From an uncultured Lentisphaeria bacterium (lineage in GTDB: Bacteria > Verrucomicrobiota > Lentisphaeria > Victivallales > Victivallaceae): DNA of 13,520 nucleotides. The stretch is taken from contig CAIJKT010000462.1 in the NCBI GenBank assembly GCA_903821255.1, positions 1 to 13,520 of the forward strand, in the 5' to 3' direction. The notes under the pieces were generated by a model, which saw only the letters and a program-made list of their open reading frames with translations, did no database searches and had not been told where the DNA came from. Below are positions 808-10,098 of this stretch, in pieces (within the stretch, counting starts at the first letter, position 1; the number at the start of each line of letters is the position of its first letter). A program made the translations under genes and the position numbers.

Positions 808-1359
808 TTACAACTGCAAAAAAGCGTCCAAAACAGGCTGCCGCAACACAGATGCCTGATTAACAGAAGTTTCCGTACTGGCAGCAGTCTGACGGGACTC
901 ACAGGATACCGGCACAACCGACATTCCGGAGAGTTTGGAGAGCTCCCGAGCCGGGAGATTGTCGGTTTTCCCGCCAATCCCGGCAGAATGGACTGCATGG
1001 ACGACATGGACAGCATGGAGGTCCGCTGTCGCGGAGATTCCGGAGAGTTTGGAGACCTCCTGAGCAGAAGATGATTCCGGACAACCGTCCGATCCGGAGA
1101 GTTTGGAGACCTCCTGAGCTGGAATGTCTTCGCCGCTGCGGCCAGCAGAACTAACCGGGCAACCGCCCGTTCCGGAGAGTTTGGAGACCTCCTGAGCAGA
1201 AGATGATTCCGGACAACCGTCCGATCCGGAGAGTTTGGAGAGCTCCTGAGCAGGGGGTGTTTCTGTTGTATTGATTCTCCCAGTATTCACAGTACTCCCA
1301 TTATTCCCATCAGACTCGCCCGTTCCGGAGAGTTTGGAGTCCCGTTGAGCTAACCAGTA
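808..1359 (-). pseudogene. Detached C-terminal repeat tail of the HTH protein, out of frame by one base
   Basis: From 1359 to the TAA at 808 the minus strand is open in the frame one base off from the upstream HTH gene. It begins YWLAQRDSKLSG and carries the motif AQE(V/L)SKLSG again and again, joined by Ser/Gly/Pro/Glu-rich linkers, and ends with a His/Val-rich and then a Thr/Ser/Gln-rich stretch. The opening YWLAQR lines up with YWLDRN at the end of the first HTH domain (residues 104-109), so this was almost certainly the natural continuation of the gene whose frame now ends at 1310. An ATG at 1290 could start a 160-residue protein, but no good ribosome site was seen. Repeat starts are spaced 54-114 bp, always a multiple of three, which implies selection as protein while the repeats spread. 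The function of the tail is unknown; a flexible, low-complexity extension is the inference. Confidence 0.6.
925..1350. repeat. Six interspersed copies of a 27-bp repeat
   Basis: The plus-strand unit is TCCGGAGAGTTTGGAG, two variable bases, CTCC or a close variant, one or two more bases and GAGC. Copies lie at 925-951, 1039-1065, 1093-1119, 1171-1197, 1225-1251 and 1324-1350; the last is the most diverged. A higher-order unit of 81 bp (1039-1119 and 1171-1251) is identical at 80 of 81 bases, which points to recent duplication. Start-to-start distances are 114, 54, 78, 54 and 99 bp. Each copy contains TCCGGA, a self-complementary hexamer, and most have GGAG-N2-CTCC. The five copies from 1225-1251 down to 925-951 encode AQELSKLSG, AQEVSKLSG or ARELSKLSG on the minus strand; the last copy encodes AQRDSKLSG. 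Confidence 0.93.
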
Positions 1360-2062
1360 GACGGATTGCCTTCAGATTTGGCGGAAGCTGACGCACCGTG
1401 GTTTTACGGAGTCTGCCGTCATGGTAGAGTTCAGTCCTGACGGTGCAATCGCCCGTCGCGATTGCCAGCAACTGACTCCGCAAAAGACCGTAACACTGCC
1501 TCCTGCCGCTGTCCAGCGCGGCGGCGAATTCCGGAAAATGTTTCTTATAATTATAGAATGAGGCCGGCGAGATGCCCAGCCGTCTGGCGATTTGGGAATC
1601 AGTATCGCCGGAACTGGCGCAGATTTCTGCTCTCGCCGGAAAAAGTTCGTCATCATACTTTAAACTTGTCGCGGAATTGCCGCTTACAGGTTTTGGATTT
1701 GGCAGCCCGGCGGGTTTTTCATCGGCATACTGTTTGTTCCGGTCCAGCCAGTAAATGACGGCTTTCAGATCCGGCGCCCGCTGCCGCACGGTTTTGATTT
1801 CGCGTCCGCTGTCACTGTTTCTGACGGCGGTGACAAAGCAATTGCCCATTGCCAGGTCCAGCACTCCGGTTTCCATGTCGTCGTCAACCGCCTGCCGTCC
1901 GAGAGCGATTGCTTCGGCGAATTCCGGGAACTGCCGCTGATAGGCGTAAAACGTTTCCGACCCGATTTTCAGGTTGGCCGCGATTTGACTGTTGTTCATT
2001 CCCTTTGCCGCGTATTCCCCGGCTCTTGCCGGAAAGCTTTCATCATACTTCAATTTCGCCAT
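1310..2062 (-). CDS. Tandem double-HTH, phage terminase small-subunit-like protein (frameshifted C-terminus)
   Basis: The 250-residue product holds two copies of the same domain. Domain 1 spans about 4-115 and domain 2 about 134-233. Both open with LKYD(E/D)..FPARA, carry a helix-turn-helix (NSQIAANLKIGSETFY and DSQIARRLGISPASFY), continue with FPEFA.A...GR and end with TVRQ..P.LKA. This order resembles small terminase-like DNA-binding proteins of phages, which bind packaging sites; no other phage gene is nearby, so a domesticated or mobile role is possible. The ATG at 2062 has GGAG 8 bases upstream. The last 17 residues are not native: domain 1 reads LKAVIYWLDRN, whereas domain 2 reads LKAI and then leaves frame at 1360-1363, where one extra base is present. 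Removing one base would give a 417-residue protein running to 808. It is either a recent pseudogene, a phase-variable or recoded gene, or a sequencing error. Confidence 0.7.
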   Translation of the reverse strand: MAKLKYDESFPARAGEYAAKGMNNSQIAANLKIGSETFYAYQRQFPEFAEAIALGRQAVDDDMETGVLDLAMGNCFVTAVRNSDSGREIKTVRQRAPDLKAVIYWLDRNKQYADEKPAGLPNPKPVSGNSATSLKYDDELFPARAEICASSGDTDSQIARRLGISPASFYNYKKHFPEFAAALDSGRRQCYGLLRSQLLAIATGDCTVRTELYHDGRLRKTTVRQLPPNLKAIRLLVSSTGLQTLRNGRV

Positions 2063-2119: not shown

Positions 2120-2143
2120 TTGTCAACTGAAACCGGCAATGTA
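2120..2143 (+). repeat. Left copy of imperfect 24-bp direct repeat flanking the NTase module
   Basis: It matches 3910-3933 at 19 of 24 positions without gaps. The shared core is AAACCGGCA, one differing base and TGTA, preceded by TTG(T/A)CAA. The copies lie 121 bp before the first gene and 15 bp after the last gene of the nucleotidyltransferase/winged-helix operon. It could mark an insertion boundary, but the match is short. Confidence 0.4.
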
Positions 2144-2264: not shown

Positions 2265-2876
2265 ATGAAAAAAGAATTTGACAATCGTAATCTCAACGAA
2301 GCTCTGGAACTGCTTGGCGCAATGCTTGAGCGACAGAGCTCAAGGCATTATACGCTGGTAGTTTGCGGCGGGTCGGCGCTTATTACTATGGGTCTGGTCA
2401 GTCGAACGACTAAAGATGTTGACGTCGTAGCCATGCAGGATGAATATTGTAATATTCTTCCGATTCGCGAAATTCCTGCTGAATTACAGGAAATTGCCGG
2501 AGCCGTGGCGGAGCAATTGCAATTGCCGGACAACTGGCTCAATGCCGGACCGGGGCCGATTATAAATAGAAATCTGCCGCATATGGGATTGCCGGAAGGG
2601 TTCTCCGGACGATTAACGCAATTTAAATATGGCGGCAATTTAACTGTATCATTCATCAGCCGGCTGGATCAAGTGTTTTTCAAGACTTTCGCTGCCGCTG
2701 ATAAAGGCGGACCGAGTTACCATCTTGACGACTTACTGAAACTCAAGCCGGCGGCACAGGAACTTCTCGAAGCTGCCCGGTGGTCCATGATTCAAGATCC
2801 ATCCCCGGCGTTCCGGACAACGCTGGAGCAAATGTTTAACAGCATAGGATTTCCGGATGCCGCAAGCAAAATATAA
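2265..2876 (+). CDS. Nucleotidyltransferase-fold protein (DUF6036-like, AbiEii-related)
   Basis: The 203-residue product shows a minimal nucleotidyltransferase signature: VVCGGSAL at about 33-39, then TTKDVDV at 48-54, giving a GGS motif and a DxD pair (D51, D53) that would hold metal. Later motifs SRLDQVFFKTFAA and DLLKLKP..QELLEAARW match the C-terminal half typical of the DUF6036/AbiEii-related group. Such proteins would transfer a nucleotide to RNA or protein; some relatives are toxins of toxin-antitoxin or abortive-infection systems. No substrate can be read from the sequence. It overlaps the downstream winged-helix gene by 20 bp, so the two are probably co-expressed. The start has no ribosome site, but a well-spaced promoter ends just before it. 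The DxD pair is intact, so catalysis is plausible. The fold is well supported; the biological role is inference. Confidence 0.78.
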   Translation: MKKEFDNRNLNEALELLGAMLERQSSRHYTLVVCGGSALITMGLVSRTTKDVDVVAMQDEYCNILPIREIPAELQEIAGAVAEQLQLPDNWLNAGPGPIINRNLPHMGLPEGFSGRLTQFKYGGNLTVSFISRLDQVFFKTFAAADKGGPSYHLDDLLKLKPAAQELLEAARWSMIQDPSPAFRTTLEQMFNSIGFPDAASKI

Positions 2877-3894
2877 CGCTTCGCAATTAAGCAATAAAAT
2901 ACATGACGTCATGCCGCGCCTGCTATGGCGGCAATGGTGCGATCTGGGTGTTAAGGGGCATGGCGGCGAATCAGGCGGAATTGTTATTGACCCGGAAGCG
3001 CTGATTGTCGCAACCTGTATCTGGGGGCGTTACGAAATGCGGCTCTTTGAAGAGATGCTGGACTGGCTGATTGAATTTCACCCTGCAATCAATATTAACC
3101 GTTTAAAAGCATTCCATGCGCGGCAAAGTGCGGAAACACAAAGCATTTTGTCCGCGGTTGCCGATTTTACCGGAAACACGACCGGAAACCGGCAATGGAA
3201 AAACTTTGAAGACGAAAGCAGCAAGGTCCAAATTGAGCCGCGAGCGCTGTTTATGCGCGACAAACATACCCCCGTGCCGCCTTTCGGCAGCAATTTTGAC
3301 GAAGTCTTTAAAGCTCACGGCTGGATTACTGGAAAATTTGAACCGCGCGGGCTTGCGGGAAAGTATATTGATGGAATTTCCGCTCTCCGGCTGAAAATGC
3401 GGTATCTGTTCGGCTGTAATGCCAGGGCTGAAACAATTGCATTTCTGCTGACCAATCCCGACGGCGCTCATCCGCCGTTTATCGGAAAACAGATCGGCTA
3501 TACCCAGAAAACAGTAAATGACGCGCTGTCAGCAATGGCCAGGTCAAATTATATTTGCCCGGAGACCAGCGGCAATAAAAGAATATATTATCTGTCGTCG
3601 GACTTTGCCGCGTTTTTAAGCGGACAGAGAAAATCATCCGGAATATGGTTTAACTGGATGCCGGCCTGCTGTTTCCTGGAACTGCTGGAAAACAAACTCA
3701 ACGATTCCGGCTTTACGGAGCTGTCTGAACAGGCGCAGGCAGTTGAACTGCGGTTGATGCTGAAAAAACTGCCTTATCCGCCGGCGCTTTGTATTTCACG
3801 AGACGGCTTCAGCCGGAGACTGGCAACTGACGGCGATATCACGCAGAGCATGTTCGCCTGGGCGGAAGAGTTGCTTGAATTTATGCAGCAATAG
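2857..3894 (+). CDS. Winged-helix protein of unknown function paired with the NTase
   Basis: This 345-residue protein has no function I can name. The N-terminal half (about 1-175) has conserved-looking blocks such as LLWRQWCDLGVKGHGGE and IDPEALIVATCIWGRYEMRLFEEMLDWL, apparently helical. Residues about 177-250 look like a winged helix: a helix with RLKMRYLFG, LLTNP, then QKTVNDALSAMARSNYI as the recognition helix and KRIYYLSSDF as the wing. No signal peptide or membrane segment is seen. The ATG at 2857 lies inside the end of the upstream nucleotidyltransferase gene (20-bp overlap), with AGGA 7 bases upstream, which suggests translational coupling. By analogy with AbiEi/AbiEii, the DNA-binding partner may repress the operon or neutralise the enzyme, but here it is the second gene and has a large unrelated N-terminal domain. 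The pairing is clear; the role is inference. Confidence 0.72.
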   Translation: MPQAKYNASQLSNKIHDVMPRLLWRQWCDLGVKGHGGESGGIVIDPEALIVATCIWGRYEMRLFEEMLDWLIEFHPAININRLKAFHARQSAETQSILSAVADFTGNTTGNRQWKNFEDESSKVQIEPRALFMRDKHTPVPPFGSNFDEVFKAHGWITGKFEPRGLAGKYIDGISALRLKMRYLFGCNARAETIAFLLTNPDGAHPPFIGKQIGYTQKTVNDALSAMARSNYICPETSGNKRIYYLSSDFAAFLSGQRKSSGIWFNWMPACCFLELLENKLNDSGFTELSEQAQAVELRLMLKKLPYPPALCISRDGFSRRLATDGDITQSMFAWAEELLEFMQQ

Positions 3895-3909
3895 TTTATA
3901 AAATCATCG

Positions 3910-3938
3910 TTGACAAGCCAAACCGGCATTGTAATGCC
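3910..3938 (+). repeat. Right copy of the 24-bp direct repeat, with a small hairpin
   Basis: Bases 3910-3933 match 2120-2143 at 19 of 24 positions. The copy overlaps a hairpin (3925-3938), GGCAT, loop TGTA with flanking T/A pair, ATGCC, just after the winged-helix gene. No T-run follows directly, so it is a poor intrinsic terminator. The remaining bases to 4024 hold nothing I recognise. Confidence 0.4.
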
Positions 3939-4024
3939 TCAGTCTTTAGAAAACAAGTTTATGACACTATGGCAACATTACGGCATGAAGAGAATTGCCG
4001 CTTGCCGCACTTTGAAATTGGCGG

Positions 4025-4915
4025 CTAAGATTTCTGCTGCCGGCGGAAATCGCGGGGGCTGATGCCGAAGTAGGCGTGAAACTGGCGGTTGAAATTGGAC
4101 AAGGTCGGATAGCCGGATTTCAGCGCAATGGACAGGATATCTTCAGTAGTGTGGCGCAGCATTGCCGCTACCGCCTCCAGCCGCAGCCGTTTGATGTATT
4201 CCTGAGGTGAATATCCGGTGGCGGCATGAAATACCTTGCGGAAATTGGACACGCTGTAGCCGCATTTCCGGGCCAGCAGATCCATCCCGATATTTTCATG
4301 GTAGCGCTGAGTGATCAGCCTGATTGCCGGAGTGACCATTTCCAGCTTCCGCCGCGAAACCGGGCCCGGGGCAAAGGAGTCGCGCCTCTCCGACGGCAGG
4401 ATCCGGTGCAGCCGCACCATCATCGCCCAGACCAGCGCCCGCACCAGCGAACGGTATCCGTCTTTGCGCTGCTGCAGTTCTTCGATCACGGTGCGGATAA
4501 TGGCGCAAAGCTCCGGATGTTCCGCCGCCGCCAGGACATTATTGAAATCGGGACCGCTGAGCAGTTCGGTCTCCAATACCGCCGCATCCTCCCGGACAAA
4601 CCCGGCCAGCAGCGCCGCCGGAGCGAGATTGACAAAATACCAGTCGGTCACGCTGCCGGGCGACCCCTTCATCGTATGGAGTTCGCGATGGTTGATGACC
4701 ACGGCGTCACCGGCCCGGAAGGTCCGTATCTTGTTTTCCACAATGAAGATACCCGATCCGCTGCAGCAGCAGCCGATCTCAAGGCAGTCATGCACATGCG
4801 CCTCAATCGGCACATCCGCACGGAGGGTGTGATCCGGCGCCGCCACCGGAAAGGCATCGTCCAGCCGGATCGGGGCAAAAACCGCGTCAAGTAACTCTTT
4901 TGATTGATTAAGCAT
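4025..4915 (-). CDS. AraC-family transcriptional regulator
   Basis: The 296-residue product is a cytosolic, ligand-responsive DNA-binding activator. The N-terminal cupin sensor domain includes EAHVHDCLEIGCC at about 39-50, FRAGDAVVINHRELH at 66-80 and DWYFVNL at 91-97. The C-terminal AraC domain has two helix-turn-helix units: DLLARKCGYSVSNFRKVFH (about 212-230), then GYSPQEYIKRLRLE, and DILSIALKSGYPTLSNFNRQFH (about 259-280), then GISPRDFRR. It is transcribed away from the dehydrogenase/transporter operon across a 102-bp gap, so it most likely controls that operon and possibly itself. Its inducer should be the transported sugar or a derivative. The ATG at 4915 has no clear Shine-Dalgarno, so an alternative start is possible, though residues near the start fit the family. 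Confidence 0.92.
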   Translation of the reverse strand: MLNQSKELLDAVFAPIRLDDAFPVAAPDHTLRADVPIEAHVHDCLEIGCCCSGSGIFIVENKIRTFRAGDAVVINHRELHTMKGSPGSVTDWYFVNLAPAALLAGFVREDAAVLETELLSGPDFNNVLAAAEHPELCAIIRTVIEELQQRKDGYRSLVRALVWAMMVRLHRILPSERRDSFAPGPVSRRKLEMVTPAIRLITQRYHENIGMDLLARKCGYSVSNFRKVFHAATGYSPQEYIKRLRLEAVAAMLRHTTEDILSIALKSGYPTLSNFNRQFHAYFGISPRDFRRQQKS

Positions 4916-4957
4916 AGTATTTTTATCGTTTTAAGGGAGAATATACCTTTTAGATTA

Positions 4958-4965
4958 ACTATAGT
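4958..4965. promoter_or_regulatory. Possible operator palindrome in the divergent control region
   Basis: ACTATAGT is self-complementary and sits mid-way between the AraC gene and the dehydrogenase gene, inside an AT-rich stretch. A second weak inverted repeat, AACT-N6-AGTT, lies just before the dehydrogenase ribosome site. Both are short and could be chance; AraC sites are more often direct repeats. Confidence 0.2.
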
Positions 4966-5017
4966 ATATACAGGCAATAAAATCAACTGTTATTAGTTCA
5001 ATACAGGAGCAAATCAT

Positions 5018-5962
5018 ATGAAAGCAGCCGTTCTTACCGCCACCGGGTTTCAGATCAACGAAGAAAAAATACCGGAATACGGTCCGGACCAGATACTGGT
5101 GAAATCATCCGGCTGCGGTGTCTGCGAAGGCGATGTGTTCCAGTACATCACCCGCATGAACAACCCGGAATCCAGGCAGGAATTTATCCGCATGGGTCAC
5201 GAAGGTTCGGGCATCGTCGCTGAAACCGGCCGGAATGTGACCGGATTCAAGCCGGGGGATAAAGTCACCGCGCTTGGCGGCGACTACGCTGAATACTTTG
5301 TCACCACTCCGGACAGGCTGGCCATAGTTCCCGGCAGCATCGAGTCAAGCATGGCCCTGGGCGAACCGATTGCCTGCTGCATGTCCGGCGCGCGCCGCTT
5401 CGGCGTGAAGATGGGTGACCGTGTCGCCATTATCGGCGCCGGCTACATGGGGCTGACCTGTATGCAGCTGGTTAAACTGCAAGGCGCTGCGGAAACAGTG
5501 ATTTTTGACCTGCTCGACTGGCGGCTTGAGAAGGCCGGAATCCTCGGCGCCGACGTTGTCATCAATTCAAAGGGCAAAACTCCCGCCGAACTGTTCGCGC
5601 AACTGGGAGAATTTGATGTGGTTATCGAAGCCACCGGCGTACAGGCTGCAATCGACCTGGGCACCGAATTGCTGCGGCATCACGGCACCCTGAATCTGGT
5701 CGGTTACCATCAGTCCGGCGGCGGCATCCGCCAGATCGATATGAAAACCTGGAACTTCAAAGCGCTCACCGTGATCAACAGCCATGTCCGCAACGAGGCG
5801 GAAAAGCTGGACGCCATGAAAGCGGCGCTGAAGTTAATGGCGCACGGCAAACTTGATACCAACGCGTTAATCACCAATTACCGGTTTGCCGACATCAATC
5901 AGGCGTTTCAGGACCTTAAAGCCCGCAAAGAAGGCCTGTACAAAGCCAATCTGATATTCTAA
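5018..5962 (+). CDS. Zinc-dependent medium-chain dehydrogenase (polyol/sugar type)
   Basis: The 314-residue enzyme likely oxidises a sugar alcohol or sugar using NAD. The catalytic zinc site is visible: CGVC with C36, GHEGSG with H61-E62, and GEPIACC with E116. The nucleotide-binding motif IIGAGYMGL spans about 138-146, and an acidic residue after the next strand (VIFD, D164) favours NAD over NADP. The protein is shorter than usual (about 340-380) because the four-cysteine structural zinc lobe is absent: KVTALGG leads directly into DYAEYF. It starts with AGGAG 8 bases before the ATG. It is 69 bp ahead of a sugar transporter gene on the same strand and divergent from an AraC regulator, so the three form a catabolic cassette. 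The exact substrate cannot be told from sequence. Confidence 0.87.
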   Translation: MKAAVLTATGFQINEEKIPEYGPDQILVKSSGCGVCEGDVFQYITRMNNPESRQEFIRMGHEGSGIVAETGRNVTGFKPGDKVTALGGDYAEYFVTTPDRLAIVPGSIESSMALGEPIACCMSGARRFGVKMGDRVAIIGAGYMGLTCMQLVKLQGAAETVIFDLLDWRLEKAGILGADVVINSKGKTPAELFAQLGEFDVVIEATGVQAAIDLGTELLRHHGTLNLVGYHQSGGGIRQIDMKTWNFKALTVINSHVRNEAEKLDAMKAALKLMAHGKLDTNALITNYRFADINQAFQDLKARKEGLYKANLIF

Positions 5963-6031
5963 ACAAAACGATGAACCGCGGAGTTGCCAGAAGGTTTTGA
6001 CGGAAGATGTTAATGAATCAGGAGTATTTTT

Positions 6032-8080
6032 ATGCAGAGTTCATTACCGGAAGCGCCGGCGGCTCCCAAAGTTGCCGGTGAAGTTAAAACTTTTCATTGC
6101 GGAACCCTGGTTTACACCCAGGCCGGACTTGTTGCGCTTTTCGGTTTCCTGCTCTGGGGTGACTTCTGCTGCATGATGATGCAGACGGTCATCCCGAGCA
6201 TTCTGCCGCTGAAACTCAAGGCGCTCGGCGCTTCGAACGTCCTGATCGGGGTACTCCTCACCAGCATCTTCCCGATCTTCGGCGTGTTCATCTCGCCCTA
6301 TCTCAGTTTTAAAAGCGATTATCTTAGAACCAGATGGGGGCGGCGCATTCCATTTTTCGCCTTATCCATTCCTTTTGTCTTCATAAGCATAATGCTGCTG
6401 GCTTTTTCAGACGACATCTCCGCGTTTCTGTATCGCAGCTCCAGCCTCATGGCGATGCTCTCGCCGGCATCAGCGGCAATTCTGGTCATTGCGGTGTTTG
6501 TCGTGTCTTTTCAATTTGCCGATGTAATGATCATGTCCGTCTTCCAGTACATCTTCAATGATACTGTTCCGGTTATGTTTATCGGACGTTTCATGGGTCT
6601 GATGCGGATCGTCGGCGGGGTTATAGGCTTCCTTTACAACTACTTCATTTTCAAATACGCCGAAAGCAACAGCAAGGAGATCTTCATCTGCACGGCATTC
6701 ATATATCTGATAGGAATAGGCATGATGTGTCTTTTCGTGAAAGAGGGGAAATATCCGCCTGTCACCGAAAAGGAGAAGAACAATACCCGCGGCTGGGCTG
6801 GTTTTAAGACTTATTTCCGCGAGACTTACTCCTGCAAATTCTACTGGACGAAATTCATCTACAGCACCACCAGCGCCATGGCCTGGGCGGTCGGCCCATT
6901 CTATGTCTTCTATTACAAAGATCTGGGACTGTCGCTGGAATACATCGGGAAAGCGGCGGCCGTAGGCTCCGCCGCCGCCATTGCGGCGGCGTATTTCTCC
7001 TCCATCTTCATTGACCGCTGGCATCCGTTGCGCATAATGACCTATTCTTCCATTTTCGCCGTTGTTTTTTCGGCGGCCGGCTGGGTGTGGCTTTTTGTTA
7101 CGCTTTCGCCTGAGGCATTCTTCTGGCTGTCCATGATGTTCGGCGGACTGATTGGCGCTTTTCATACCACCCTTGCCGCGCTTGCCAGCATGCCCTTCAA
7201 CATCCGCCTGCAACCCAAATCCCGTTACGGACAGTTCTGCTCCGCCGAGTCCATTTTGCGGAACGGCTGCACGATTGCCGCCGGTTTTCTGGTCGGCCTT
7301 TTCTTCGACTCCCTGATGTGGCTTTTCCATGGTTCCGGTTACGCGTACCGTTTCATTTTTGTCTGGGCGCTTTTCTGGCTGATTGTCTCGGCGGCAGTCA
7401 TCGGCAGTCTCTACCGACAGTGGCATGCGCTGGGCGGCGACTTTCACTTTCATCCCCCGGCCCCCTGGTCTGAGACCGGGTTCGAGGAGATGGAGCAGGC
7501 TCCTTACGTCAGCATTCAGACCCGCTGGCTGAGCTATGCGCTTGTCGTATTCCGTCTGCTGATGCTGCTTTCGATAGTTTATCTGATTCCGCTTACTTAC
7601 TGGCTGTGGCACATTGGCTGGAGTTTTGATTTCAAGTGGCATCTTTTCGCAATAATCCCTGTTTCGATAGTGATTTACGGCGTCTGGTCATTTATTGAGC
7701 GCTCGATAAGAGCTGACGTCGCGCGCTGTCTGGCCGGGGAAAAGCCGCTTGACGGCATTCCGCATCACGGAGTATTCCTGCTGAAAGCCTGTGCGCTTCT
7801 CCTTATTTTCTTTGCCTGGACCGGCATGACGATTATGGCGGTCCGCGGCGGACTTCAAGGCGGCGTGATGGTTTTCGGCATCGGCAACCTGATCACGAAT
7901 GCGCTGGTGATCGGCGCGGTGCTTGTTCTACGCCGCCTGGAGCGGGGATATGACCCGATGCTCAATTACGACGGGCGCAGGGAAGAGTACGCCGCCGTGG
8001 TGATTAATGAACCGCCGCCGGCAAACAATGAAGACGGAGCAGGGAACGACGATGACGGGGAATTGCCGGTGACGGCATAA
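6032..8080 (+). CDS. MFS sugar transporter, GPH/SLC45-like, with four extra membrane segments
   Basis: This 682-residue inner-membrane protein is predicted to import a sugar, glycoside or polyol by cation symport. About twelve hydrophobic segments occupy residues 31-465. The loop after segment 2 has the motif SFKSDYLRTRWGRRIPF, typical of GPH/SLC45-like carriers, and segments 4-5 carry QYIFNDTVP and FIGRFMGLMRIVGG. After residue 465 come a soluble stretch and four more hydrophobic segments (about 500-527, 535-556, 582-608 and 612-638), then a Glu/Asp/Asn-rich cytosolic tail. Common GPH carriers have about 450-500 residues, so the C-terminal third is an added module. The ATG at 6032 has AGGAG 7 bases upstream. 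It follows the dehydrogenase gene and probably shares its mRNA and AraC control. The carrier class is well supported; the substrate is unknown. Confidence 0.85.
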   Translation: MQSSLPEAPAAPKVAGEVKTFHCGTLVYTQAGLVALFGFLLWGDFCCMMMQTVIPSILPLKLKALGASNVLIGVLLTSIFPIFGVFISPYLSFKSDYLRTRWGRRIPFFALSIPFVFISIMLLAFSDDISAFLYRSSSLMAMLSPASAAILVIAVFVVSFQFADVMIMSVFQYIFNDTVPVMFIGRFMGLMRIVGGVIGFLYNYFIFKYAESNSKEIFICTAFIYLIGIGMMCLFVKEGKYPPVTEKEKNNTRGWAGFKTYFRETYSCKFYWTKFIYSTTSAMAWAVGPFYVFYYKDLGLSLEYIGKAAAVGSAAAIAAAYFSSIFIDRWHPLRIMTYSSIFAVVFSAAGWVWLFVTLSPEAFFWLSMMFGGLIGAFHTTLAALASMPFNIRLQPKSRYGQFCSAESILRNGCTIAAGFLVGLFFDSLMWLFHGSGYAYRFIFVWALFWLIVSAAVIGSLYRQWHALGGDFHFHPPAPWSETGFEEMEQAPYVSIQTRWLSYALVVFRLLMLLSIVYLIPLTYWLWHIGWSFDFKWHLFAIIPVSIVIYGVWSFIERSIRADVARCLAGEKPLDGIPHHGVFLLKACALLLIFFAWTGMTIMAVRGGLQGGVMVFGIGNLITNALVIGAVLVLRRLERGYDPMLNYDGRREEYAAVVINEPPPANNEDGAGNDDDGELPVTA

Positions 8081-8113
8081 TTCGCGGCCCGGAGTTAAAA
8101 TATAAAAGCCTTT

Positions 8114-8143
8114 TATTTTACGATAATGCATTATCTTAAAATA
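8114..8143. terminator. Bidirectional terminator-like palindrome between convergent genes
   Basis: A 30-bp inverted repeat with a single mismatched pair: outer arms TATTTTA and TAAAATA, inner perfect palindrome GATAATGCATTATC, which could fold with loop TGCA. It lies between the transporter stop (8080, plus) and the endonuclease IV stop (8178, minus). T-rich arms on both strands suit termination in both directions. It is AT-rich, so the stem is weak; a protein-binding palindrome is the alternative. Confidence 0.6.
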
Positions 8144-8177
8144 GGCAGGCATTGCAAATAACCGCAATCTGACGATT

Positions 8178-9083
8178 TCAAAACAGTTCGCCATCCGCCG
8201 GGGCGGCTTTTTTTGACGTTTTTTTCAACGGCCCCGGCTTTGCTTCCTGCAGACCGTAGAGCCAGGCGATCTCTTCCGGCCAGAGTGACGGGTCAATCGT
8301 TTCCAGTATCAGGGGAATGCCGTCAAACCGCGGATCCTGCATGATCCGGCGGAAAATATTTTCGCCGAGATTGCCTTTGCCAAGGTTCTCGTGACGGTCA
8401 ACATGGCTGCCGAGCGAGGATTTTGCATCATTTATGTGCATGCCGCGCAAGTATTTAAATCCGATATGGCGTTCAAACTGCGAAAACGTCCAGTCAAAAC
8501 CGTCATCCGTCGAAATGTCGTACCCGGCGGCGAAAGTGTGACAGGTGTCAATACAGACGCCGACCCGGCTTTTGTCCTTGACCCCGGCAATGATGGCGGC
8601 TACCTGTTCAAAGCTGTAGCCGACATTCGTACCCTGTCCGGCGGTGTTTTCAATGACGGCGGTCACGGAATCGGTTTCCGTCAGTGCCCGGTTGATCGCG
8701 TCCGCAATCCGTTCCAGGCACTCCGCTTCGCTGATTTCGCCTAAATGACTGCCGGGATGAAAGTTAAGCAGGATCAGGCCGAGTTGCTGACAGCGGACCA
8801 TTTCGTCAATGAAAGCATCCGTCGCCGCCCGGTGTTTGACATCGTCAGGCTGTCCGAGATTGATCAAGTAGCTGTCATGCGGCAGGATATGTTCCGGCAG
8901 ATAACCAAATTTGACGCAGTTGTCTTTGAACGCCTTGATCTCATCAGCGGCCAGCGGCGGCGCTTTCCACTGGCGCTGGTTTTTGGTAAACAGGGCAAAA
9001 CCTTTTGCGCCGATTTCCGCGGCGTTCTCCGGGGCTTTATGCACCCCGCCGGCAGTGCTGACATGCGCTCCGACAAATTTCAT
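8178..9083 (-). CDS. nfo: Endonuclease IV (AP endonuclease)
   Basis: The enzyme cuts DNA 5' of abasic sites and removes blocked 3' ends in base excision repair. The 301-residue product shows the full TIM-barrel family pattern: HVSTAGG at 7-13, [71 protein letters not shown] and LILETIDP. All nine trinuclear zinc ligands are present and fall at the same numbers as in E. coli: H69, H109, E145, D179, H182, H216, D229, H231 and E261. The last ~20 residues are a Lys/Ala-rich extension beyond the usual length of about 280-285. The ATG at 9083 has GGAGG 6 bases upstream, next to an 11-bp tandem duplication. It lies 67 bp after the YbgA-like gene and is probably the last gene of that run. Function is certain by family. 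Confidence 0.97.
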
Positions 9084-9091
9084 AAAATCCC

Positions 9092-9113
9092 TCCGTCATT
9101 TATCCGTCATTTA
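9092..9113. repeat. Two tandem 11-bp units at the nfo ribosome-binding region
   Basis: TCCGTCATTTA is repeated exactly, 9092-9102 and 9103-9113. On the minus strand the duplication lies just upstream of and reaches into the nfo Shine-Dalgarno (GGAGGG), and also creates a four-codon reading frame (Met-Thr-Asp-Lys-stop) ahead of the gene. It may be a simple slippage duplication. Confidence 0.7.
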
Positions 9114-9150
9114 TGTAAGTTTTTTGTTTGTAAACAATTAAGCAATTTTG

Positions 9151-10098
9151 CTATACGTGGTATTTTAACTGTAGTTCTTCAGCAGACGGATTCAAATAAT
9201 ACTGCTGAAGCAGAAATTCGCTGTTGTATTTGCGGGTGTAATGGCGGAGCAGCGTTAACGGGGACAGCATCGGAAACAGGCCGTCAACATAGCCGTTGAT
9301 CAGATCCAGCAGTTCCTGTTTTTCATAAGCGGAAAGATTCTTTTTAAAGTAACCCATGATGTGCATCATCACATTGCGGTTTTTCTTCGGGGTGACCTTG
9401 TAATCCAGCGCTTTCATCAAGGCTTCCAGATACCGTTTTTTCGTTTCCGTCAGATTTTTGTGGTTCTGCGCGGCGACAATCCGCCCCAGTTCTTTAACGC
9501 TGTCCGACGAATGTGCCATCAGCATATATTTGTGGCGGCTGTGAAATTCCACCAGCCCCTGTGCGGAGCCGTCGTTTTCTTCGTATTCCAGCCAGCGGCT
9601 GAAAACCATGATTTTATCAATGAAGTTTTCACGCAGCGCGTTGTCGTTCAGCCTTCCCTCCTCTTCAACCGGAATCAGCGGAAAGCGCTCCGTGAAGCCC
9701 CTGGCGAAAAGCCCGACGCCTTGTTTGACCGGAATGCCGTTGCCGCCGAACACTTTTACGTTAAATCTGCCGGAACTGGGGGACTTGCTTTTGAAAATGA
9801 AACCGCAGAGTTTCTCCTTTTCCAGTTCATCGAGTTTTTTTGTCATCCAGGAGTTCATCATTGCGGTGTGATCGATCCCGGTATGGATGGTGACCAGGCG
9901 GGGGGCGTCGATATCTCCGGCCAGGTGCATGGCTTCCCGCGGAACGGGCAGGCCGCATTCCACCTCCGGGCAGACCGGCACGAATTCGGCAAACTGTCCG
10001 AGGATGTCAACAATATAATGATCTAATTTATGCTGACCGTCATAACGTACTTTCTGACCCAGCAGACAGGCACTTGCACCAAGGCGGATTTTACGCAT
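9151..10098 (-). CDS. ybgA: YbgA-like DUF523-DUF1722 protein with a missing cluster cysteine
   Basis: This 315-residue protein joins an N-terminal DUF523 (TudS-like) domain, about 1-145, to a C-terminal DUF1722 domain, about 155-315. DUF523 proteins of the TudS type hold a [4Fe-4S] cluster on three cysteines and remove sulfur from thiouracil; the DUF1722 fusion resembles E. coli YbgA, of uncertain role. Seen here: SACLLGQKVRYDG (C11), PVCPEVECGLPVPRE (C43), and KSKSPSSGRF, where relatives usually have SPSCG; residue 109 is serine (codon TCC). DUF1722 marks are GLVEFHSRHKYMLMAHS and SPLTLLRHYTRKY. Two in-frame ATGs exist; I chose 10098 because its AGGAG lies 9 bases upstream, whereas the ATG at 10104 would leave only 3. 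It follows the SGNH hydrolase gene by 12 bp. The loss of the third cysteine may alter or abolish the cluster. Confidence 0.9.
   Translation of the reverse strand: MRKIRLGASACLLGQKVRYDGQHKLDHYIVDILGQFAEFVPVCPEVECGLPVPREAMHLAGDIDAPRLVTIHTGIDHTAMMNSWMTKKLDELEKEKLCGFIFKSKSPSSGRFNVKVFGGNGIPVKQGVGLFARGFTERFPLIPVEEEGRLNDNALRENFIDKIMVFSRWLEYEENDGSAQGLVEFHSRHKYMLMAHSSDSVKELGRIVAAQNHKNLTETKKRYLEALMKALDYKVTPKKNRNVMMHIMGYFKKNLSAYEKQELLDLINGYVDGLFPMLSPLTLLRHYTRKYNSEFLLQQYYLNPSAEELQLKYHV

Follow-up and report, generated by a model that had tools for sequence, protein, structure and literature searches.

Introduction

In AbiE systems, a winged-helix protein (AbiEi) and a nucleotidyltransferase (AbiEii) are encoded by two overlapping genes, with the gene of the enzyme in second place. 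Nucleotidyltransferases are also found in the MenAT systems of Mycobacterium tuberculosis (MenT1, MenT3/TglT and MenT4), and in MntA-HepT, where a nucleotidyltransferase shares one operon with a second protein and acts as the antitoxin; according to excerpts of PMC7641770, MntA is an adenylyltransferase that blocks HepT. Here we describe a gene pair at positions 2265..3894 of a 13,520-nucleotide contig (CAIJKT010000462.1, assembly GCA_903821255.1) from an uncultured Lentisphaeria bacterium, the whole of which is referred to below as the window. The pair consists of an enzyme of the Pfam family DUF6036, followed by a larger partner protein whose family is described in none of the libraries searched. 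We consider it reasonably probable that the two genes form an undescribed toxin-antitoxin-like defence module, resembling AbiE and MenAT but with reversed gene order and an unrelated large partner, which has repeatedly been taken up by restriction systems.

The principle of such an association is known. In EcoprrI, a type IC system, a translation-blocking arm is likewise coded inside the type I restriction operon; this arm is the anticodon nuclease PrrC, which the Hsd complex holds and which, in excerpts of PMC3506569 and PMC12707154, comes without a typical antitoxin. In the RptR-RMS-DarTG2-M48 island of Escherichia coli, as presented in excerpts of PMC12255303, a toxin-antitoxin pair likewise lies in a type I operon together with a metallopeptidase, with DarTG2 between hsdS and hsdR. 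The proposal of immunity-suicide coupling belongs to the same principle; it noted that typical antitoxins do not seem to be encoded in immune operons. The pair described here is made of other protein families than the E. coli island, lies between hsdM and hsdS, and is accompanied by a YgjP-like metallopeptidase instead of M48. Within the known principle it stands out by another enzyme family, a partner not described before, another slot in the operon and, apparently, an antitoxin of its own. In an open-licence collection of 5.39 million papers DUF6036 was named in none, and the searches of open-licence papers returned no reversed-order nucleotidyltransferase pair of this kind, nor any nucleotidyltransferase pair inside type I operons.

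A DUF6036 nucleotidyltransferase and its overlapping partner

The pair and its parts in the window are as follows.

2265..2876, plus strand: DUF6036 nucleotidyltransferase (Pfam), toxin candidate, 203 residues, intact
2367..2423, plus strand: catalytic motifs I and II, GGS ... R47-x-T49-x-D51-x-D53, in near-invariant alignment columns
2682..2732, plus strand: motif III lysine K140 to motif IV-like aspartate, H153-x-x-D156, from the alignments
2857..2876, plus strand: 20-bp overlap of the enzyme and partner genes
2857..3894, plus strand: partner, antitoxin or regulator candidate, 345 residues, with an N-terminal helical domain, a central winged helix and C-terminal helices
2857..3351, plus strand: N-terminal domain of the partner, about residues 1-165, with conserved residues and mostly helical in the model
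3394..3636, plus strand: winged-helix domain of the partner, residues 180-260, from the fold search and ArsR-type profile matches

The enzyme matched DUF6036 (PF19502) with 38.9 bits against a gathering cut-off of 23.6, and narrowly missed Pfam AbiEii (18.8 bits, cut-off 22.5); the best AbiEii model of PADLOC gave an E-value of 0.0016. A sequence search of the Protein Data Bank (PDB) returned nothing better than E 0.8, that match being a fungal protein. We collected 525 homologues at E 1e-3 and counted motif conservation in alignments of 75 sequences (the window enzyme with 74 listed homologues) and of 87 sequences derived from the loci described below. The residues of motifs I to III are invariant or nearly so in both, and K140 and D156 are conserved in 75/75 and 87/87 sequences, which agrees with the intact GGS and DxD motifs noted originally and goes against the original refuting condition of an active site that varies among orthologues. 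The R-x3-D-x-D spacing is that of R63, D67 and D69 in AbiEii, and the position of T49 ahead of D51 matches that of the phosphorylated T39 ahead of D41 in MenT1. In contrast to the +DxxD of AbiE, the motif IV position reads H-x-x-D, although D156 itself is invariant. The enzyme is predicted to fold like a MenT toxin, with MenT4, MenT1 and MenT3/TglT among the top rows of the fold search. The pair differs from MenAT in lacking a PDB sequence match better than E 0.8, in its larger partner and in its reversed gene order, and no MenA chain was among the matches listed.

For the window partner, Pfam gave nothing above cut-off, and neither NCBIfam nor PADLOC gave a match, AbiEi models included. Searched as a single sequence it retrieved 5 homologues, itself included, whereas a profile search scoring the 7996 best candidates retrieved at least 374. 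Its AlphaFold2 (AF2) model has a predicted local distance difference test score (pLDDT) of 93.2, and in the fold search with the whole chain all matches were taken up by the winged helix; ArsR-type chains also matched at about residues 185-252 in the profile search. The domain thus falls at residues 180-260, close to the 177-250 proposed originally, and it is central in the chain, whereas that of AbiEi is N-terminal. Conservation extends to regions outside the winged helix, including D45-P-E-A-L, R58, R62, W70 and R82 of the N-terminal domain. HEPN toxins carry an R-x4-6-H motif; in the alignment of 97 partners (the window protein and 96 listed homologues) not one histidine column reaches 85% conservation, and no HEPN family appears among the Pfam matches listed (25 of 60 families). 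With no family match and no conserved histidine, the identification of the partner as a known enzyme or a HEPN toxin was rejected, and the original refuting condition of a match to a known unrelated enzyme did not come true.

The two genes form a conserved pair

In a collection of one genome per species, 107 loci encode a relative of the partner, and the best 80 form our partner-anchored set. The loci were found in Verrucomicrobiota and neighbouring phyla, Thermodesulfobacteriota, Myxococcota, Spirochaetota, Omnitrophota, Planctomycetota, Hydrogenedentes, Elusimicrobiota, Actinomycetota and others; searches of viral contigs, plasmids and phages, the phages with the enzyme only, gave no relatives. 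The enzyme gene lies directly 5' of the partner gene on the same strand in 72/80 loci. Three of the other eight are at contig ends (L031, L053, L074) and five are without a full enzyme (L016, L057, L060, L061, L079). As was originally noted for the window, the enzyme comes first in all 72 two-gene loci, the reverse of AbiE.

We then anchored the comparison on the enzyme. It was detected in 18 of 288 Verrucomicrobiota genomes (E 1e-10) and in 12 of 297 Desulfobacterota genomes, and partner sequence followed directly 3' in 18/18 and 12/12. With adjacency in 30/30 enzyme-positive genomes, chance pairing was rejected. In G272 only about 40 codons of the partner are left before it runs into another frame, galactosidase-like by our reading, that may reflect an assembly chimaera; in the Desulfobacterota set G574 has an interrupted partner and G333 a short, divergent one. 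The partner is present in 22 of the 288 Verrucomicrobiota genomes, and the co-occurrence is clear, against the original refuting condition of families that rarely occur together: 17 genomes have both genes, 1 the enzyme with the cut partner, 5 the partner only and 265 neither (Fisher P 4e-22; these counts are lower bounds, since the first pass scored a limited number of candidates). The partner-only genomes are G111 (contig end), G170 (fragment), G007, G297 and G265, the last of which retains a 3' remnant of the enzyme.

The genes overlap by 14-32 nt in 85/85 pairs with both genes complete, most often by 26 nt (51 pairs) or 20 nt (25 pairs), when the partner is assumed to begin at the methionine closest to where the profile match starts. 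These pairs comprise 62 partner-anchored and 22 enzyme-anchored cases and the window, with a few genomes counted twice. Translational coupling of the two genes is likely.

PF19502 matches occur in 38 of 247 Spirochaetota genomes, and the partner was present at 2 of the 30 DUF6036 loci fetched (L148-L177; the other 28 are without it), so pairing as a general property of DUF6036 was rejected. At L156 and L147, distant DUF6036 genes lie beside shorter, divergent partners of about 254 and 268 residues, which suggests that such pairs also exist outside the family modelled here.

Some genomes carry more than one copy. At L028 (5085-8496) two modules stand face to face with their partner genes tail to tail, and the enzyme of the first is without catalytic motifs I and II. 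Geminisphaera colitermitum TAV2 has three copies (L002, L003, L004; about 7021-9912) that are 98-99.96% alike over a sharp-ended block of up to about 2.9 kb. The block holds the enzyme, the partner and a frame of 191 residues that has no Pfam match, and in L002 it has lost its left end. It may represent a mobile unit that carries the module along.

The module is often embedded in type I restriction operons

To describe the surroundings, the gene families of the 80 loci were clustered and one representative of each was identified with Pfam. Recurrent neighbours are HsdM (N6_Mtase, E 4e-109), HsdS (Methylase_S, 2e-44) and HsdR (HSDR_N, 4e-43), as well as a YgjP-like metallopeptidase, RadC and Fic. 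Judged by similarity to the single representatives, hsd genes are present at 24/80 loci, which are type I restriction operons and make direct the link to defence that had originally been a guess. In 20 of the 24, hsdM lies 5' and hsdS 3' of the module, the typical order being hsdM-nucleotidyltransferase-partner-hsdS; hsdR follows further on in 15 restriction loci and YgjP in 11. At L023 both hsdM and hsdS are 3' of the module. L060 (6411-10233) and L061 (1774-4654) read hsdM-partner-hsdS, with the partner in the slot without a full enzyme, so it can persist alone within a restriction operon.

The enzyme-anchored genomes have hsdM 5' of the module in 9/30 cases (3/18 Verrucomicrobiota, one of them a short hsdM piece, and 6/12 Desulfobacterota), or 7/28 once the two anchor genomes are removed. 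With the same flanks, hsd genes were found at 0/30 Spirochaetota DUF6036 loci, and comparison with the 28 of these that are without a partner (7/28 versus 0/28) gave P 0.010, the control coming from another phylum.

In a partner tree of the window and 79 loci (an eightieth was left out because its match was short), the restriction label requires 9 changes versus 21 for shuffled labels, and at least 8 changes are forced by well-supported branches. The association with type I operons has thus been gained or lost at least eight times on this tree, on which some loci labelled as alone may be mislabelled where contigs end. In one clade, spanning several phyla, 15 of 16 rows are in restriction operons. 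The window partner adjoins a Chitinivibrionales copy, a placement that joins two long branches and is unsure. On a shorter scale, the HsdM of L063 was used as a query against 198 Desulfobacterota genomes. All four loci with an HsdM at least 81% identical have the module (the query's own included, and one split over two contigs), in contrast to 0/21 loci with an HsdM at most 53% identical that have it within 1.5 kb; in some of the latter hsdS follows hsdM directly. In these genomes the module therefore resembles an insert that occupies a fixed slot and is retained within its restriction lineage.

The catalytic residues are kept in both restriction-embedded and stand-alone enzymes. The neighbours of stand-alone copies are diverse: among 95 scanned (of 98 selected), the 25 Pfam families listed, out of 77, match 1-2 genes each, and the PADLOC models among the matches listed include AbiEi, AbiEii, AbiD, SduA and pAgo, again with 1-2 genes each.

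The enzyme decays more often than the partner

Genes were scored as complete when a single frame covered 85% of the enzyme or 75% of the partner, a measure blind to internal deletions that passed the L028 enzyme without motifs I and II as intact. In the enzyme-anchored genomes, five lesions affect the enzyme only (G029, G240, G115, G454, G310), one the partner only (G272) and one both (G574), a bias with a binomial P of 0.029 given the gene lengths; the short divergent partner of G333 was not scored as a lesion. The partner-anchored set has both genes complete in 62/80 loci. Here the enzyme alone is incomplete or absent in 17, of which 11 are clear after removal of four contig-end and two borderline (83%) cases, both genes are broken in one and the partner alone in none, in a set that favours intact partners. 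Four lone-partner genomes, G005-G008, gave no enzyme-profile match at E 1e-5. This excess of damaged or missing enzymes over damaged or missing partners fits a toxin and its antitoxin and is the opposite of what MntA-HepT would predict.

At L057, the partner gene is immediately preceded by an AbiEi-AbiEii pair (3837-5488 and 5714-6835; PADLOC E 1.5e-54 and 9e-109), and the DUF6036 enzyme is a 3' remnant only. One nucleotidyltransferase pair may have displaced another.

Surroundings of the window copy

The original description of the window pair as standing alone between a phage-like helix-turn-helix gene and a regulator was accurate. Its neighbours, both on the opposite strand, are a terminase-small-subunit-like gene and an AraC regulator, and no hsd gene was recognised across the 13.5-kb window by Pfam scan or in the list of open reading frames. 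The terminase-like protein (1313-2062, minus strand) has two helix-turn-helix-like halves (phrog_309, E 6e-35), and no further phage gene was recognised beside it in the window. The flanking repeats of the original prediction were not established, nor was a link of the window's own copy to a mobile element; an imperfect direct repeat around the pair is marginal, having been equalled in 3/500 shuffles.

2120..2143, plus strand: weak 24-nt direct repeat, left copy, 79% identical to 3910-3933
3910..3933, plus strand: weak 24-nt direct repeat, right copy

Between 925 and 1366 there are six repeat copies, spaced 54-114 nt apart, that share the same 16 nt at their core (TCCGGAGAGTTTGGAG) and are similar over a longer stretch. 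They fall in minus-strand frames, namely 811-1290 and the 3' end of 1313-2062, and translate in one frame to a recurring AQEVSKLSG-like peptide. No RNA family was matched at the window. A scan for promoters and terminators gave 10 promoter-like sites on both strands versus a shuffle mean of 2.6, and the repeats upstream of the enzyme gene are AT-rich; neither observation is used as support.

Discussion

The pair is AbiE/MenAT-like in anatomy: like AbiE, it has two overlapping genes, hG[G/S]...R-x3-D-h-D and lysine motifs, and a winged-helix partner. By family and gene order it is not a member of AbiE. In the mechanism we propose, the free, compact nucleotidyltransferase would stop growth by transferring nucleotides to an essential RNA, tRNA 3' ends being the most likely target by analogy with MenT1. 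The partner, translated from the same message, would keep the enzyme off and repress the shared promoter. The module would move as a cassette, taken up repeatedly by type I operons between hsdM and hsdS, where it would probably serve as a second line when restriction fails. By analogy, PrrC is perhaps a working model for the restriction-linked copies. The slot between hsdM and hsdS, together with the DNA-binding type of fold, raises the possibility that the partner monitors the condition of the type I complex, or that of its DNA, so that a phage disabling restriction would release the enzyme and shut down translation. We put forward this guarding role tentatively, as a possibility with perhaps one chance in a few of being correct.

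Two caveats apply to this reading. An aminoglycoside enzyme scores as well as the MenT toxins in the fold comparison, and single lesions may be sequencing errors of draft assemblies. The former would suit an ordinary small-molecule nucleotidyltransferase, acting for example on an aminoglycoside-like compound, together with its transcriptional regulator. We find this the least probable of the readings given the repeated embedding in restriction operons, the gene overlap in every complete pair, the decay of the enzyme while the partner is kept, and the conserved partner regions beyond the winged helix. An exchange of roles as in MntA-HepT, with the nucleotidyltransferase as an antitoxin modifying a toxic partner, has a precedent in MntA (excerpts of PMC7641770) and is in keeping with a nucleotidyltransferase whose neighbour is larger and mostly helical. 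It is nevertheless improbable, as the partner persists without a full enzyme at L016, L060, L061, L079, G265 and G297, which is unexpected of a free toxin, has no well-conserved histidine column that could supply a HEPN-type motif, and adopts a fold of the DNA-binding type.

Alternatively, the module could serve restriction operons in a regulatory or accessory capacity: the winged-helix protein would control hsd expression or assembly, and the enzyme would act by modifying this protein or another component. The fixed slot and the two operons that keep the partner without the enzyme agree with such a role, and dedicated island regulators exist, such as RptR (excerpts of PMC12255303). However, no restriction genes were detected beside the module in 56/80 loci, some on contigs that end too soon, or in the window, and the catalytic residues are kept in both settings, which makes a purely accessory function unlikely. 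We therefore retain the toxin-antitoxin-like defence module, reversed in order and repeatedly acquired by restriction systems, as the reading to be preferred.

These results supply a partner and a likely role for part of the unstudied DUF6036 family. If the pair does guard type I restriction, this would to our knowledge be the first restriction guard known to act through tRNA nucleotidyl transfer with its own antitoxin, and stand-alone copies such as that of the window would represent the free form of the cassette. The occurrence of the same cassette alone and within restriction operons, in several phyla, allows a direct comparison of the two settings and offers a natural test of immunity-suicide coupling.
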